IMG/VR virus record: IMGVR_UViG_3300037883_000323
Span: 1-33,213 of that record
Strand: one strand, 5' to 3'
From: a virus
DNA length: 33,213 bases
Shown: piece by piece, positions 1,297 to 32,446 of the stretch
Numbering within the stretch: the first letter of the stretch is position 1
Layout of the letters: each line of letters begins with the position of its first letter
Made by a program: the position numbers and the translations under genes
The notes under the pieces: model-generated
What the model was told of the DNA's origin: nothing
Seen by the model: only the letters and a program-made list of their open reading frames with translations
Database searches by the model: none

Positions 1297-4200
1297 CTCA
1301 ACCCCTCATACTTTGCCCGCCGCAAAGCGTCCAATATCTGCTGGGCGCCGCCGTTACGCAGCCACGCTTCATCGACTCTTTGCGCCTGGATCAGAGGCGC
1401 ATAGAAATGCATGTCGCCACTGATCGTTCCACCGGAGTTGATTCTTTCGAGCGTTTGCAAATTTCTGGAAGTAGACTGCGGATTGACGACAAATTCACCG
1501 TGCTTCAGCACCGCCATCAACTCGCCAGGACGATTGACAAAACTTGAAAATGCGGACGACACAAACCCGCCATCGTGGAATTGCGGAGGGCCGAAGGTCA
1601 GACTGCTACGTCGTTGCCGCTCATCCTCAAATTTCTTGATCTCTTTTTTCGCATCGTCAATGGCCGGTTGGACTCGCTTGCCAAAAATGCTTTTGCCTTC
1701 ACCTTTCAACTTGCCCAGCTCTGCCTTGGCCTGAGTATCTAGATCATCCAGTTGCTTGTTGGCTCCGGCAAAGTCGAGCTGGAAGTTCTCATAAGCGTCC
1801 ACGATCTTCTTTATATCCGGTAGAACGGTGCTATCGACAAAACTGTTGGCCTGCTTCTTTCTCTTGCTGCCGCCGAAGATGCCGCCAAAGATGCCGCCGA
1901 GTAACCCGATCAGGCCGCCTACTAGCGCCCCAATTGGACCGCCAATCAACAGCCCGCTCAGCGCGCCGCTGCCAGCGCCACTCAGCGCGCCGATCCCGCT
2001 GCCGAAGTTCTGCCCGAGTCCAAATCCCAGCAGGCCGCCAATCCCGCCGCCAAGCACAGCAGCAGCGCCGGTCGCGCCAATAGTGCCAAACAACGCGCTT
2101 ACAATTCCGCTCAGTTTCCCTGTTAGCCCGAGAGCCAACAGCGTTCCACCAATCGATCCAGTCGTACCGCCAAGCCTTCCCAGCAGAGATGAAGCTAGCG
2201 CTCCAACTCCCAGCAGACCATTCGGGCTAAGCAGCTTGCCAAGCCCAAGCAGCCCTCCAGATCGCGAGGGAGAAGCTGTTGCAGCTCCAGCCGATGAGTC
2301 TCCGGCAATAGCCCCGCCCAGCACATCAGAAAGACTCGTTGTGTTGAGCGGTCCGGATGGCGCAACCACGGATGTTAATGCCGGCGACTGTCCAAAAAAG
2401 GCACCCAAGCCAAGCGCGCTTGCAGTGGTTGCAGTGCTCGATGATGTGGCAGCGCCGTTGATCGTCGCGGCTGTCGTGCTTCCCTGCCCAAATATGTTGC
2501 CTAGCGAGCTGCCAAACAACTGGCCCGTATTAGCGAAGCTGGCAGGCGCGCCTGTTGCAGTGCCGCCAGCGGTCGGCGATCCGCCTGAAATGCCTGGGGG
2601 AACAAATGGAGGAGTACCCCCGCCGCCGAACAAACCGCCGCCTAGCAGGCCGCCAAAGGGGTTTCCGCCACCGCCAAAAATGTTTGCGCCAGTTGATCCT
2701 GGGCCGAACACAACCGAACCCAAGATGCTGCCGGCTTGCGACTTCATCACACCCATCGACAAAATCCACTGCGCCAGTATCTGGAAGAACAGCTTCTCCA
2801 TGTTTTGCAGGATGCGTTTGCCGATGTTGCCGCTGCCGATGTCATTGAAGACCGACTCCAGTTCACTCCCTAGCTGGTCGGCCATCCGCTTGTTTTCCTG
2901 GATGATCTTCTCATCCGTCTCGGCGTGGACCTGGGCGCGTTTGGCGTCCGCCTCTTTGCTTAAGGCCGCATATTCATCGCTGCCTTGCTTGTATTTTGCA
3001 AGCTGGCTGCGTTCCTGCTGGTCGATCTGCTGAATGCGTTTGTTGGATTCGATCACGATCTGCGCGTATGCGCGCTGCCACGGCGGTATTGTGGCCAGCG
3101 CCGCCGCAGTCTCCGCGTTGCGTGTTTCCTCTGCGGACTGCTCCAGTAACAACGCAGTTTTCTCAGCCTCGCCTTTCCTAAGCTTATCTACCTCTTCCTG
3201 GGTTAGTTTGGTGATCGCAATCTCTTTTTGGGAGATCTCGGATAGCTTGGCAGCAATCAGGCTCGTAGTCTGGCCATTGGAGGCAGCGATGATACCTTTC
3301 TTTGCATCTTCCAGTTGTTTGATCTTGAGGTTGCGCTCCGCATAGAGCTTCTCTTCTCCGGTTAGGGACTGGATATCCTGCTGCAATACAAAATCTTCAG
3401 TCTGCTGATGGACTTTTTGCACCTCCAAATCAAGAGTCTTGAGCTTATTGGTTGCCTGCTGATGAATCAGCACTGCCCTTTGCTCGTAATCCTGCCTGGT
3501 GATCAGGCTCTGGCTGCGCAGATTATCTAATTCTTTAATGGAAAACTTCTCGTCTTCGCGGATCTTCAGCTCATCTGCAAGAGTTTCATCTGTCACCTGA
3601 TGACGCAAGGCCAGCGTGGCCTGGGCGTTTTGCCGGGCCAGCGCCCCCGACTCTGCGACAAATTTCCGCTCGTTCGCTGCAAGCACCTCGGGATCAGTAA
3701 TGTCCTGGCTAGCGAATTGCTTTTCCGCGTTCAGCTTTGCAAAACCTTGCAACCCCGCCAACGTTGCTTCCCTCTTTGCCTGTTGGAGCACTTTATTCTG
3801 CTGTTCGAGCGCCTTATTCTCCTCTTTGACCAGTCCGGTGCGGTGTTCTGTTAGTTGATTGCGCTGGCTCTCTAGCTCAATGATTTGATCTTGAATCTGT
3901 TTTTGTTCTTGCAGAGCTTTATTTTCTTGTTCTGTTAGCGACCGCTCTTCTCCGTAGCCGCTATCCTGGGAAAATGGATTCTGAGTTAGCGCTCTTTGCT
4001 GCAGATCCTCGACCTGTTTTTTCTTTCGTTCAAGTTCCTCAATTTTTTTATTAAGTTCATTCGTGTGAGCTACAGCGATATCGACAGTACCAGGCGTAAT
4101 AAACGCTTGACGGCTGGCCTGGATCGTGGCTTGTTCCATCTGTTTCACGGTCGCCGTGTACCCTGCCATTTCCTGGGTCACCTCCACGATCTTGTTCCCA

Positions 4201-17212: not shown

Positions 17213-17263
17213 CAACTCATTCCTCCCGCTTTGGCGCTGGTCAGACCCACCCCGAAACTACCC

Positions 17264-17303
17264 TGTGTGCCACGGCACAAGGCACCTTGTGACGTGGCAC
17301 ACA
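17264..17303. repeat. 40-bp near-perfect palindrome
   Basis: The outer arms TGTGTGCCACG (17264-17274) and CGTGGCACACA (17293-17303) match over all 11 bases. After one G/A mismatch, the inner arms CACAAGG (17276-17282) and CCTTGTG (17285-17291) match over 7 bases. No T-run follows on either strand. It lies between two small membrane protein genes, about 50 bases upstream of the start of the two-helix one. It may be an RNA hairpin in the late mRNA, a protein site or a cruciform. Confidence 0.85.
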
Positions 17304-17364
17304 CACTTGTTGGGCCTGTGGGGTATCCAGGCCATTTTTCTAAGTAGAACGCCCTAATCCCAGA

Positions 17365-18739: not shown

Positions 18740-19045
18740 TTTTGTTTTGTGGGAAAGTTGAAAACGGCAAAACCGAGCAGCGCACCTTTTTGACCTGAGT
18801 ATTTGGTAGGACTCAAAGAAGACTGCGCCGCTCGTTTTTGCGCGCCTTCACTCTCAGGACGAACCTTAACTCAGAGCTGCTGAATCTGGTGTCCGGTTTG
18901 GCGGACTTTGTGCTCTTTTTGCCTTTGGAAGGTTTGGTAGATTTGGATGGTTTTTACGAGGTTAGAAGTGTCCGCAGTGTAATTCACCGCTGCCCGCTTG
19001 TATACGATTCATTTGATGTAAGAGTTGATGCGCTTAAGGCCATGG
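18740..19045. other. 306-base stretch without a convincing gene
   Basis: No frame here has both a start site and a natural composition. On the minus strand a GTG-started frame of about 37 codons exists without a ribosome binding site. A 72-codon frame on the plus strand runs against all neighbours. No clear promoter, terminator hairpin or RNA gene is visible. It may be the remnant of a gene, or a leader of the lysis and head operon. Confidence 0.5.
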
Positions 19046-22068: not shown

Positions 22069-22155
22069 ATGCCAATAGCCTCTTCATCATCCTCAAAGAG
22101 TATCGAGATTTCCCAGCTTCGCGCCAGGTGTCAGCAGACCGAGGTGCAGCAATGA
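22069..22155 (+). CDS. Possible 28-residue leader peptide before transposase
   Basis: A 28-codon frame starts at ATG 22069 (MPIASSSSSKSIEISQLR) and its TGA overlaps the transposase ATG as ATGA. No convincing ribosome binding site precedes it. If translated it would couple transposase synthesis to its own. The GAGGTG for the transposase lies within it. Confidence 0.25.
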   Translation: MPIASSSSSKSIEISQLRARCQQTEVQQ

Positions 22156-24152
22156 CACACGAGGTTTGGCTCACTCTGCCTGAAGTAATGAGTGCGACCG
22201 GATGGTCTGAGCGGACCGTGTATCGCAAAGAAATCAAGACTCGCGATGGCAAGAAAGGTAGCAATGGTAAGCCGCTTAAGCAATACGCTGCCAGCTCTCT
22301 TCCTGCCGAAGTACAGTCCACGCTTTTCCGCCAGCGCCTGGCCTCGGAGGCGCTGGTAATAGCCTCGCGCTCTCCGCATCACATCGCGCCCAAGCTGCCT
22401 ACCGGACCTGATGAAAGAGAACGCATCGATCTCGGACCTGAAGCTTACGCGCAGGCTGAGCTGCGGCTAAAGATCATTGGCCCCATGATCGATTTCGTGA
22501 ATAACACCAACGGTCATAAGCCGGTTTTCAAGAACGGCTCCGGCCAGGAGATATGCACGCTCTGCGGTGTGGTGGACCACATCGCAGCCATCCAGCAGGT
22601 TTCGACCGCCACGCTGTGGGACTGGTATGGAAGGTATAAGAAGCAGGGATTCGCCGCACTTGCGGATCGCGTTCGCTCCGATGCCGGCAAGTCGCGCTAC
22701 TTCAGCAAGCATCCCCAGGTCGATGCGTTTGCACAGAATAAATTCCTGAACGAAAAGCTTTCCATCAAGCTGGTCCACGAGGCCATCGTCCGTAACTGGC
22801 CAAGACTGCGCAATGATGAAAGCGACCAGCCGCCCTCGTATGAAGTGCTGCGCACCTTCCTGAACGCCATCCCTCCCATTCTCAGCGCCGTGGCTCGCAA
22901 GGGAGAAAAGGCATTCAACAACGACTTCGCGCCCTTCATCATCAGGAACATTGAAGCCAAACGTCCGAATGAAATTTGGGTCAGCGACCACATGGTTCAC
23001 GACGTGTGGGTCCGCAATGATGGAGTGTTCGGCGAATTGAAAGAAAACGAGGCTTTCCGCCCCTGGCTTACCTGCATCGTGGACATGCGCTCGCGCAAGG
23101 TGTTGGGCACAGCCTGGTGCGTGAATCCCTCCAGCCGGTCGATCAGTTCGGCGTTGCGCGTAGCTATGTGCCGCTTTGGGTTGCCCCAAGTCTTCTACAT
23201 CGACAACGGGAAAGATTACCAGAAGGTTGGCAAAGAAGTGCCGGGCCTATCGCCTGAGGCCAGTGGGATTCTCTTTCGGCTAAACGTGAAATCACAGCAT
23301 TGCCTGCCGCTCCATCCGCAATCGAAGCAGATCGAGTCTTTCTTCCGCACTCTACATCAGCGTTTCGATGTGATCTGGTCTCCGTTCTACTGCGGCATCT
23401 CGCCGGCAAAACGCCCGGAGCAATGCGACCAGGTTCTGCGCGATCACAAGAAGCTTGTGGCGGCAGGCCAAGGCGATAAGTCGCCACTGCCGGCTGCATC
23501 GGAATTCATCCAGCTTGCAGCCCGGTGGACCGATGAATTCAATGCGACGTTCCCGCACAGCGGGCAGGGAATGAATGGGCACACCCCGAACCAGGTATTC
23601 GAGGCCGAGTTGCCCTCCGATCAACTACATCCAATCAATCCCGCCGATGTAGCCGAACTTTTTTGGGATCGCCAGAAACGCATGGTCCGCGAAGGTGGAA
23701 CTATCGAGCTAAACAACGCTCGTTACGAGCCAGCCAATGCCGAGACCTTCGCAGCGATGGCCTGCCAGATCAAGAGAGAAATCCTGGTCGCGTGCGACCC
23801 GCTGAATGTAGGCGAGGCCATAGCCCTGAGTATCGATGGCAACTTCTTAGGCCAGTTACGCGCCCAGGAGCTTCTAATCCACGGGGCAACCTCGCAAGAT
23901 GAAATCCAGGCCTCGCTGAAGACGCGGCGGCGGATGCTCAAGGCCACAAAACAATATCTGGCCACGCTCGAAAGCAGCCGAGTGCTGGCCGGAGATTCCA
24001 CCGAGATCGAGGATCTGCGCAGGCGCGCAGTGGCCTCATGTTCCAAACCCACAATCCACGCTTTGCCTGTCCTCAAAGCGGTCAACGCGCCGGAACCACG
24101 CCTGCACGTTGATGACATCGTGGACAGCTTTCTTGAGGAGACACAACCATGA
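22152..24152 (+). CDS. muA: MuA-type DDE transposase
   Basis: From the ATG at 22152 (GAGGTG seven bases upstream) the product has 666 residues, almost exactly the length of MuA (663). The N-terminus (VWLTLPEVMSATGWSERTVYRKE) is the Mu-type winged HTH that binds the internal activation or operator DNA. Further HTH segments for end binding follow at about 140-230. The catalytic triad is visible: D279 (WVSDHMVHD), D351 (FYIDNGKDY) and E395 (KQIESFFRTLH), close to D269, D336 and E392 of MuA. The C-terminal part should contact MuB. It integrates and replicates the phage by transposition. The frame stays open 37 codons upstream to a TTG, which I reject. It overlaps the next gene by ATGA. Confidence 0.96.
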   Translation: MTHEVWLTLPEVMSATGWSERTVYRKEIKTRDGKKGSNGKPLKQYAASSLPAEVQSTLFRQRLASEALVIASRSPHHIAPKLPTGPDERERIDLGPEAYAQAELRLKIIGPMIDFVNNTNGHKPVFKNGSGQEICTLCGVVDHIAAIQQVSTATLWDWYGRYKKQGFAALADRVRSDAGKSRYFSKHPQVDAFAQNKFLNEKLSIKLVHEAIVRNWPRLRNDESDQPPSYEVLRTFLNAIPPILSAVARKGEKAFNNDFAPFIIRNIEAKRPNEIWVSDHMVHDVWVRNDGVFGELKENEAFRPWLTCIVDMRSRKVLGTAWCVNPSSRSISSALRVAMCRFGLPQVFYIDNGKDYQKVGKEVPGLSPEASGILFRLNVKSQHCLPLHPQSKQIESFFRTLHQRFDVIWSPFYCGISPAKRPEQCDQVLRDHKKLVAAGQGDKSPLPAASEFIQLAARWTDEFNATFPHSGQGMNGHTPNQVFEAELPSDQLHPINPADVAELFWDRQKRMVREGGTIELNNARYEPANAETFAAMACQIKREILVACDPLNVGEAIALSIDGNFLGQLRAQELLIHGATSQDEIQASLKTRRRMLKATKQYLATLESSRVLAGDSTEIEDLRRRAVASCSKPTIHALPVLKAVNAPEPRLHVDDIVDSFLEETQP

Positions 24153-25108
24153 CGCCACAGAAGTCCGCTGAACTATCCATTGCTCAAGTCATTGATCTTT
24201 CCCGCGACTACATCTCCAGAAAAGGTTTGCGGCAGAGAGACTTTGCTGCCCGCGTCGGTTATTCGTTGAGCGCCGTCCAGAGTTTTTTGACCGCTCCCGG
24301 AAAATACTGGGGCGACGAGCAGGCGCTGGGCGCTGCGATCATGAAAGTGGTCAGCGCTGCCGATGACGAAGATGTCGATCTTGACGCGCCGCTGTTTGAG
24401 ACCGAGAATCTCGCGTTGATTCGGCGGTATTTCACCGATGCGCTCGAATCGGCTGCCGCTCGTGAAGATGTCCGAGGCTACTATTTTCGCGGCGCGCCTG
24501 GCTCACAAAAGAGCTTTGTCCTGAAACTGCTCAGCCGGGAATACAACCTGTCGCAGGCACACAAGAACGGCAGCGGTGGCCGCGCTTACTACGTTAGTTG
24601 CTACGAACGCATCCCGCGTCACGCTCTGATCTCTCGCATCGCCGTTGCCGTGGGTTCGCTGGCTGCCGGAAACACCGAGCGCATCTTGCAGAACTTGAAA
24701 TTCCACCTGCGCAGCCGCCATTGCGTTCTCATCATCGATGAGGCACAGGGATTGGAGCACCCCTGCCTGGAGATCGTTCGCGACCTGGTCGATGCGCTGC
24801 CACGGTGCGCCGTGATCTTCGCAGGGTCGCACAAACTAGAGCAAATATTCGCGCAGCTCAACATGCAGCAGTGGCATTCGAGAATTCGCAAGGGCACGGC
24901 AGTGCCTGGCGTGCAAGAGGATGAGGCCCGCGCGATTATCAAAACCGTTCTGGGAGAAGTACCCGTCAAGAAGATCGCTGGCCTGATTGCCGGGTCGTAT
25001 GACACAGACCTCTACGGCGGCAAAGTTGTCCAGTACATCTCGATGCGCAAGCTGGCCAATGCGCTCAAGCGAATCAAGTCGCGCCTGTCGGAAGGCGGAA
25101 ACGCATGA
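24149..25108 (+). CDS. muB: MuB-type target-DNA ATPase
   Basis: The 319-residue protein (MuB has 312) has an N-terminal HTH (LRQRDFAARVGYSLSAVQSFL, 27-47) and an AAA+ ATPase domain. Walker A reads GAPGSQKS (115-122), with Gln where the consensus has Gly, and Walker B reads VLIIDEAQ (193-200). RKGT near 250 may hold a sensor arginine. MuB forms filaments on DNA, chooses targets and activates the transposase. The ATG overlaps the transposase stop as ATGA, so the pair is coupled. The odd Walker A residue also occurs in some relatives, to my memory, so I do not call it inactive. Confidence 0.94.
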   Translation: MTPQKSAELSIAQVIDLSRDYISRKGLRQRDFAARVGYSLSAVQSFLTAPGKYWGDEQALGAAIMKVVSAADDEDVDLDAPLFETENLALIRRYFTDALESAAAREDVRGYYFRGAPGSQKSFVLKLLSREYNLSQAHKNGSGGRAYYVSCYERIPRHALISRIAVAVGSLAAGNTERILQNLKFHLRSRHCVLIIDEAQGLEHPCLEIVRDLVDALPRCAVIFAGSHKLEQIFAQLNMQQWHSRIRKGTAVPGVQEDEARAIIKTVLGEVPVKKIAGLIAGSYDTDLYGGKVVQYISMRKLANALKRIKSRLSEGGNA

Positions 25109-31123: not shown

Positions 31124-31789
31124 ATGAAGCAAATGCTGAAAGTACTCGCACTGACGGCGTTAACGTTGGTGTTTGCAATTGGAATAATAACCGCCTGCGG
31201 AGGCCGTGGACCCAACCCTTCTTCGACGGCAGATAACTTTTTTTCTTTTGATTGGAACCCGGCTCATCTGCTCGGTCGCACTTCCGGGACAAACCTGGCC
31301 GACAGTTCCGGTGCGTTCATCGTGAGCGCCCAGAGCACGACGCCTGGAGGAGGCAATCTATCAGGCTTCCGTGATCGTGTGTCTCCCAGCTCGGCCAGGG
31401 CAGCAACTGTGATCTTTGGTTTGGGCCGCTGGTCTTCCGGCTCTTGCGATGATGCCAGGACTCCGGATTCTTCGGTAGGAGTTGCCATTCCGCAGAACGG
31501 CCAAGTGGGGCAGCTCTCCGTCGATGCTGTGGGGACAGGTACAGCAGCCGACTCTGGCTTTATGGAGTTGAAGATCATCCACAGCGATTCGACTGAGACA
31601 ATTCTGCCGATCACTTGCACGCTCGGCATCTCTAACCCTGGCGCAAGAGTTCATTGTGAAGATAAGAGCGCTGCTCACAATACTAACGTCTCGTCGGGCG
31701 ACCAGTTCTCAGCCAGGATTTTTTACAACGGCGGGGATATCTATAACGCGATCCGCGTCAACGTTCAATACGCGGTTCCAACATTCTGA
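31124..31789 (+). CDS. Phage-encoded lipoprotein
   Basis: From the ATG at 31124 (AAGGAG ten bases upstream) the product has 221 residues. It starts with a lipoprotein signal (MKQMLKVLALTALTLVFAIG) ending in the lipobox ITAC, with the lipid-bearing Cys at 25. The mature part has a Ser/Gly-rich linker and a beta-rich domain with four cysteines (SGSCDD, ITCTLG, VHCED and the lipid site). An early lipoprotein may block superinfection by shielding a receptor, but this is inferred. The frame opens nine codons upstream; I chose the ATG with the ribosome site. Confidence 0.75.
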   Translation: MKQMLKVLALTALTLVFAIGIITACGGRGPNPSSTADNFFSFDWNPAHLLGRTSGTNLADSSGAFIVSAQSTTPGGGNLSGFRDRVSPSSARAATVIFGLGRWSSGSCDDARTPDSSVGVAIPQNGQVGQLSVDAVGTGTAADSGFMELKIIHSDSTETILPITCTLGISNPGARVHCEDKSAAHNTNVSSGDQFSARIFYNGGDIYNAIRVNVQYAVPTF

Positions 31790-31795
31790 AGAAAA

Positions 31796-31935
31796 GGCGG
31801 GGGCTTGTGTCCCGCCTGAGACTCTCATTGGCGTGTTCATCAGTTGATTCAGGGAATACAGACGAATCCGGCCCTGCCGTTTGGTGAGCGTCAAGGGGAT
31901 GCCCAGAGCATCCCCAGTCTCAGGGAGGACACAAG
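31796..31935 (+). promoter_or_regulatory. Long-range RNA stem covering a ribosome binding site
   Basis: Arm 31804-31823 pairs with arm 31916-31935 at 18 of 20 positions. The right arm contains AGGGAGG, the best ribosome binding site for the gene that follows. A second hairpin, GGCGGG (31796-31801) with CCCGCC (31811-31816), uses the same left-arm bases and would free the site. A third hairpin, GGGGATGC (31895-31902) with GCATCCCC (31908-31915), is next to the right arm. This is a switch-like layout; no ligand is known. Confidence 0.55.
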
Positions 31936-31936
31936 T

Positions 31937-32446
31937 TTGCAGGTGCAGGCCAGGGACATTTACGCAGGCTCAGATGGCGAGCTTACAAAGCGTTTCTATG
32001 CGCGCCTTGAAGATCGCGGCCACATAGGTATCGTGGCGGTTAATCTTTTTCGTGCGCAGAAGTGCTCAGCGCGCGCCAAAGTGTATAGAGGCGGCGTTCG
32101 CGGTTACGGTTCATTCAAGCGCTTGGCTTACGACCGCAAGGCATGGGCGCTGAGAAACTTATGTTCTGTCCTTGAGCAGCACGGAAATGATCTTAATATC
32201 CGTTTCGGATGGAAAGAAGACCCCTTGGAATACTTCGCAAGCTGGGTGTTGTATGTAGACCTTCCAAATGGCCAGGTTAGCTTTCACAACATTTCTCGGC
32301 TTGCTGGACCGGATTATCCAGGCCAGTGGGACGGCCAGCACTTGAGTTGTAATCGAGTCTTAGACTTCTGCGATGCCGTCCTCGATGGAGGCACAGTCGT
32401 ACCAGCCCTGCAACAATCTTGCGGACAACAAGGGAGCCTATTTTAA
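31937..32446 (+). CDS. Hypothetical phage protein (WVLYVDLPNGQVSFH family)
   Basis: The core stretches VAVNLFRAQKCSARAKVYRG, WVLYVDLPNGQVSFHN and GPDYPGQWDGQ form a pattern I recall from phage and plasmid proteins of unknown function. From the TTG at 31937, which has AGGGAGG eight bases upstream, the product has 169 residues. An upstream in-frame TTG at 31844 would give 200 residues but has no ribosome binding site and a low-complexity start. The site for the preferred start lies in a long-range RNA stem. Function unknown. Confidence 0.7.
   Translation: MQVQARDIYAGSDGELTKRFYARLEDRGHIGIVAVNLFRAQKCSARAKVYRGGVRGYGSFKRLAYDRKAWALRNLCSVLEQHGNDLNIRFGWKEDPLEYFASWVLYVDLPNGQVSFHNISRLAGPDYPGQWDGQHLSCNRVLDFCDAVLDGGTVVPALQQSCGQQGSLF

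Follow-up and report, generated by a model that had tools for sequence, protein, structure and literature searches.

Long hairpins placed at the initiation region of a second gene can keep that gene closed, as in the intercistronic hairpin that sequesters the Shine-Dalgarno sequence (SD) between genes VII and IX of phage f1, where a 4-nt overlap joins the two genes and the ribosome arriving from upstream traverses the hairpin (PMC12548453). Such translational coupling achieves little or nothing beyond a spacing of about 30 nt, fading past 30-40 nt, and in f1 VII/IX a stop codon well upstream of the hairpin abolishes it (PMC12548453). In riboswitch and attenuator leaders, one arm has two alternative partners and the SD is held in the off stem. 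The T7-type intercistronic RNase III sites constitute another class, in which a double-stranded stretch of about 20 pairs, interrupted by an internal loop, lies between early genes. Finally, the Correia, ERIC and RUP MITEs are intergenic units of 100-150 nt with inverted ends, which fold over their whole length and are possible RNase III substrates (PMC10969869).

A gap that resembles each of these systems in part was found in the window analysed here, which is the whole IMG/VR virus record IMGVR_UViG_3300037883_000323 (33,213 bases) and which, judging from its encoded proteins, represents a Mu-like transposable phage. The early genes are tightly packed on the + strand. No non-coding stretch of their operon is longer than this gap (31790-31936, 147 nt), which lies between a lipoprotein gene and a gene from an uncharacterised phage family; all other gaps are shorter than about 80 nt according to the automatic ORF call and the gene list. 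The automatic call itself omits this gap, since it begins the downstream frame at the earliest start codon available (31844). Based on modelled folds, we tentatively read the gap as a phage-specific non-coding folded spacer that would act as a fixed translational brake in the steady state, with no two-way switch. The explanations considered overlap, since a mobile palindrome may at the same time serve as a brake or as a site for RNase III, and the confidence given to each refers to it as the primary reading. The features involved are as follows.

22146-24152: MuA-like transposase (PHROG 310, E 6e-89)
24149-25108: MuB-like ATPase (PHROG 296)
31124-31789, + strand: upstream lipoprotein gene, an ORF with a lipobox and a signal peptide ending in ..IITAC-GG; stop codon TGA at 31787-31789
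31795-31817, + strand: alternative hairpin H1, AGGCGGG (31795-31801) pairing exactly with CCCGCCT (31811-31817)
31804-31823, + strand: left arm of helix P1, CTTGTGTCCCGCCTGAGACT, complementary at 18 of 20 positions to 31916-31935
31828-31894, + strand: arm P2 of a three-way junction, in both the MFE and the centroid structure, imperfect and with several G-U pairs
31895-31915, + strand: hairpin P3, GGGGATGC-CCAGA-GCATCCCC, 31895-31902 pairing with 31908-31915
31916-31935, + strand: right arm of P1, AGTCTCAGGGAGGACACAAG, containing the SD, pairing probability about 1.0
31922-31928, + strand: SD AGGGAGG, 8 nt before TTG 31937 and 14 nt before GTG 31943
31943-32446, + strand: downstream gene of an uncharacterised phage protein family, starting at GTG 31943 (by homology) or TTG 31937 (by SD spacing)
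32674 to the window end: GemA-like gene

The first-pass annotation had described a 20-base arm pairing at 18 positions with a distant partner, a second partner GGCGGG just upstream of that arm, and a third hairpin stacked against the right arm. The two arms of P1 were recovered to the nucleotide, 92 nt apart, by a repeat search and a separate scan in agreement; the upstream partner forms the exact stem of H1, which uses 7 nt of the left arm, and P3 directly adjoins the right arm. In the RNA, three outer G-U pairs (31801-31803 with 31936-31938) extend P1 to 21 pairs, plus a 2x2 internal loop. Inverted repeats of this quality (18/20, no more than 200 nt apart) numbered 0.03 on average in 60 dinucleotide shuffles of the whole window, as against two in the window itself, the second being at 17263-17304.

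RNA folding with energies, which the annotation had proposed as a check, confirmed a stable fold, a single dominant three-way junction of P1 with P2 and P3. The region 31800-31940 reached -70.8 kcal/mol, compared with -47.4 ± 3.7 kcal/mol for shuffled sequences (z -6.4, equalled by none of 200 shuffles), all energies reported here being single-sequence predictions that leave aside proteins, ribosomes and host temperature. Among all 150-nt stretches on both strands of the window, the region of this fold has the lowest energy for its GC content. P1, P3 and H1 are each beyond chance, the perfect 8-bp stem of P3 being matched in stability by none of 500 shuffles and H1 alone (-14.0 kcal/mol) by 3 of 500, whereas P2 alone is within chance (29 of 500). 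The arms also fold strongly on the opposite strand and as DNA, as expected because they form a DNA palindrome. As modelled, the structure is real, statistically strong and confined to this phage. An inversion artefact of the assembly is unlikely, as the two arms are not identical (2 mismatches in 20) and enclose an unrelated core; a pair of DNA operators was likewise set aside, the arms being the sole matches within the window, which is uninformative in this respect.

Whether the SD of a real gene is involved depends on the true start of the downstream frame. Some 60 homologues of its product were identified by protein and then profile scans, at about 56 separate loci in IMG/VR and three in bacterial genomes, and most of them begin with M-x-A-x-x-(V/I)-Y, aligned to GTG 31943. 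A start at TTG 31844, which the annotation had named as incompatible with its proposal, is ruled out by this alignment, no homology being found upstream of residues 1-3. TTG 31937 lies two codons before GTG 31943 in the same frame and has the better SD spacing (8 nt). Because the homologues fix the start at 31943 or 31937, and not at 31844, the SD AGGGAGG lies in the right arm of P1, as had been suggested, and since the gene is intact and conserved, its start matters. Searches of Pfam and PHROG with this family returned no match, and PDB nothing convincing. The family (31943-32446 here; loci L002-L060) comprises proteins of about 150-170 aa widespread in IMG/VR, with an invariant motif NLFRAxKxSxRAKxY and a mostly conserved YVDLPxGQVSFH. 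At L002, a gene similar to acyl carrier proteins (3744-4001) lies just upstream of the homologue, overlapping it by 4 nt.

The burial of this SD is predicted to be nearly complete. It lies within P1 at a pairing probability of approximately 1, apart from the bases GA (31925-31926), which fall in the 2x2 internal loop, so that the SD of a real gene is held within a stable helix. In its full context AGGGAGG takes 11.0 kcal/mol to open, a cost that drops to 3.5 kcal/mol once the left arm is blocked; its duplex with the anti-SD is worth -11.1 kcal/mol. The opening cost of the SD region (-22 to -8 relative to TTG 31937) is 17.8 kcal/mol, the highest of 43 phage gene starts (mean 6.0, sd 3.0 for the other 41 starts). 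With a wider opening window the start ranks second to third in closure, behind that of gene 25105; closed starts are therefore tolerated in this phage, and the closure is unusual rather than unique. An RNA thermometer was also considered and rejected, P1 being far too stable.

In the proposed mechanism, the early-operon transcript would collapse into the three-way junction, with P1 enclosing the strong SD of the next gene, and because of this inclusion the downstream gene should by default be translated poorly. H1 would form first during transcription and P1 would displace it through strand exchange after synthesis of the right arm, leaving at most a short window with the SD free before P1 closes. 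Relief would most likely come from cutting of the P1 duplex by a double-strand RNase, such as the host RNase III. The sequence, the folds with their energies, the true start and the lack of the element in relatives are established here; that the fold forms in the cell, that it lowers translation, and the route of its relief are our inferences.

The annotation had gone further and proposed that the gene is off in one fold and on in the other, the choice being made by ribosomes that translate the lipoprotein gene as far as its stop codon. Part of this scheme holds, as H1 (on) and P1 (off), individually beyond chance, share 31811-31817 and are mutually exclusive, and H1 is the first to form during transcription. 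Energetically, however, the two folds are strongly unequal: the H1 state is 8.5 kcal/mol worse than the P1 state, and the probability of H1 is approximately 0 once the right arm is made. In a calculation on the growing transcript, H1 dominates (about 0.83) to about position 31923 and is gone at 31935, which identifies it as a folding intermediate; a balanced two-state switch is not supported, the states being neither close in energy nor shifted by a modelled ribosome block. The proposed role of the lipoprotein stop has the wrong direction. A ribosome terminating at 31787-31789 reaches roughly to 31800, and the buried stem starts at 31801-31804, 12-15 nt past the stop. Such a ribosome would block the 5' strand of H1 (31795-31801) and spare P1, and when the RNA was blocked up to any point in 31789-31803 the exposure of the SD stayed constant at 0.27. 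Unlike f1, where the ribosome enters the hairpin, the lipoprotein stop precedes it, so that the ribosome never does, and the distance from this stop to the downstream start (147-153 nt) exceeds the published range of coupling (PMC12548453). As the homologous leaders showed no covariation either, neither the switch nor control through the lipoprotein stop is supported, and we consider a two-state switch set by lipoprotein translation extremely unlikely. The likeness to riboswitch and attenuator leaders is limited in the same way, since the window offers no conserved aptamer-like core, no relatives and no Rfam match: a known riboswitch or ncRNA was rejected for want of an Rfam 15 match at gathering score, the only hit being at chance level and outside the element (E 8.8). 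A kinetic RNA timer, in which H1 forms first on the nascent RNA and leaves the SD open as it emerges, and P1 then shuts the gene irreversibly, with only a brief pulse of translation per transcript until RNase III cleaves P1, is in our view very unlikely; in a variant of it, the folded junction could bring the lipoprotein stop beside the downstream start, with ribosomes hopping across.

The comparative evidence, for which the annotation had called in the form of covariation, did not bear out a conserved pairing. No comparable inverted repeat in register was present upstream of any of the 59 homologous loci (58 with the full 200 nt), and a search of 1.08 Mb of kin and homologue loci with a covariance model built on the leader brought up no further copy. 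Loss of the pairing in homologues had been named by the annotation as an outcome that would refute its model, and this condition turned out against it. As no homologue or kin phage keeps the structure, selection on the pairing cannot be shown, and in this respect the gap departs from SD-sequestering leaders with conserved or covarying pairs. Many loci have almost no gap, or even an overlap, between the downstream-gene homologue and the gene next to it, and the only equally strong repeat among the homologues, at L023, is a 14-bp hairpin with a 7-nt loop located 102 nt before the start. Two homologues belong to loci that also share MuA and gemA (L010/L083 and L013/L086); their upstream gaps measure 3 nt and about 109 nt, the latter with one 10-bp hairpin, and their fold z values are -0.2 and -1.3, respectively. 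Closer kin phages were recovered by a MuA-profile scan, single-sequence scans with MuB or GemA having yielded none. Matches to MuA in about 400 Pseudomonadota genomes were no more than about 35% identical, and the host probably lies outside this phylum.

Two other explanations compete with the fixed brake. The segment 31804-31935 may have entered the gap as a small palindrome of the MITE/ERIC/Correia type, either mobile or derived from the host, its fold a by-product of the inverted ends and its effect on the next gene incidental. The annotation had itself named inverted repeats of a mobile element as an alternative, and this is a serious rival: 20-nt inverted ends with 90% identity (18/20) bound a short non-coding core within a 132-nt segment able to fold on either strand and as DNA, and the element is absent from kin phages. 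Moreover, the early operon of a kin phage (L075) carries a dispersed palindrome in one of its gaps, so that such palindromes do enter these operons, and in Correia elements the inverted ends are where RNase III cleaves (PMC10969869). By contrast with the Correia, ERIC and RUP families, no target-site duplication (at least 4 nt) was detected at any offset up to 8 nt, there is no second copy within the window and no family was found; neither exact arm was matched in IMG/VR, nor was there a match among phage or plasmid records or in 100 Pseudomonadota genomes, although the host is probably of another phylum. As the primary reading we regard the mobile repeat as possible but on the unlikely side.

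We give less credence again, and consider it rather improbable, that the gap primarily serves the lipoprotein mRNA, as a processing or 3'-end element, giving the two genes separate transcripts either because RNase III cuts the long P1 duplex or because the hairpins block exonucleases. P1, with about 21 pairs and a 2x2 internal loop, exceeds a duplex length of about 20 bp and is a putative RNase III site, within the size range of the known phage sites of T7; in contrast to T7-type sites, the candidate cleavage site overlaps the SD. Kin phage L073 (MuA 54% identical) bears on the same question. Downstream of its lipoprotein homologue (53% identical) comes a gap of 101 nt, in which two strong hairpins begin about 9 nt past the stop codon; an exposed SD and a different gene follow. 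Hairpins thus recur behind the lipoprotein gene whatever gene comes next, whereas burial of the SD does not. That gap, however, is only mildly unusual (z -1.0 over 201 nt, z -2.2 for the gap alone), shares neither sequence nor shape with that of the window, and is a single case. On balance, a brake or a processing site is the likeliest role of the gap, and its origin may lie in a palindromic repeat.

If the brake works, it would provide an example of gene-by-gene translational control within the early operon of a Mu-like phage, in a phage group without characterised close relatives, with a target from a protein family that is conserved yet entirely uncharacterised. If the element is instead a mobile palindrome, such repeats can set a ready-made SD-hiding hairpin before a phage gene.

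An intrinsic terminator on the + strand was rejected, as no T-run follows H1, P1 or P3 and a terminator scan was empty there. On the - strand, H1 (31788-31817) reads as a terminator-like 7-bp GC stem followed by TTTCTTC, with a T-rich tail (CCCGCCTTTTCTTC); no - strand gene was seen at this position. The lipoprotein gene, located within the early operon of a Mu-like phage, gave no match in Pfam and PHROG, and the L073 copy is its only strong homologue among the kin phage records searched; at a guess, its product is a possible moron or superinfection-exclusion protein.

The dispersed palindrome of L075 (15381-15466, ACCACAGAGGACACAGAGG...CCTCTGTGCCCTCCGTGTCCTCGGTGGT) lies in the early operon, immediately past a stop codon and ahead of an ATG. 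It occurs at 27 places in six plasmid records (Bacteroides and Gemmatirosa plasmids), two Gemmatirosa megaplasmids accounting for 12 and 9 of them.

Two further structured gaps were observed on the - strand of the window. The first, a non-coding hairpin at 18751-18900 (gap about 18740-19045) upstream of late-side genes, has an energy of -63.4 kcal/mol (z -6.0), with no match in Rfam and no DNA match in kin loci, and is a candidate small RNA or late leader. The other is the strong intergenic palindrome at 17263-17304, in the gap before gene 17212-16748, which is 72-74% identical to sequences that precede the homologous gene in two kin phages, L074 (3414-3519) and L073 (2887-2951). At a slide of +2, 95.6% of cells pair across the three sequences and two pairs change on both sides, so that, judged on this alignment, the palindrome appears to have better covariation evidence than the 31800-31940 fold.
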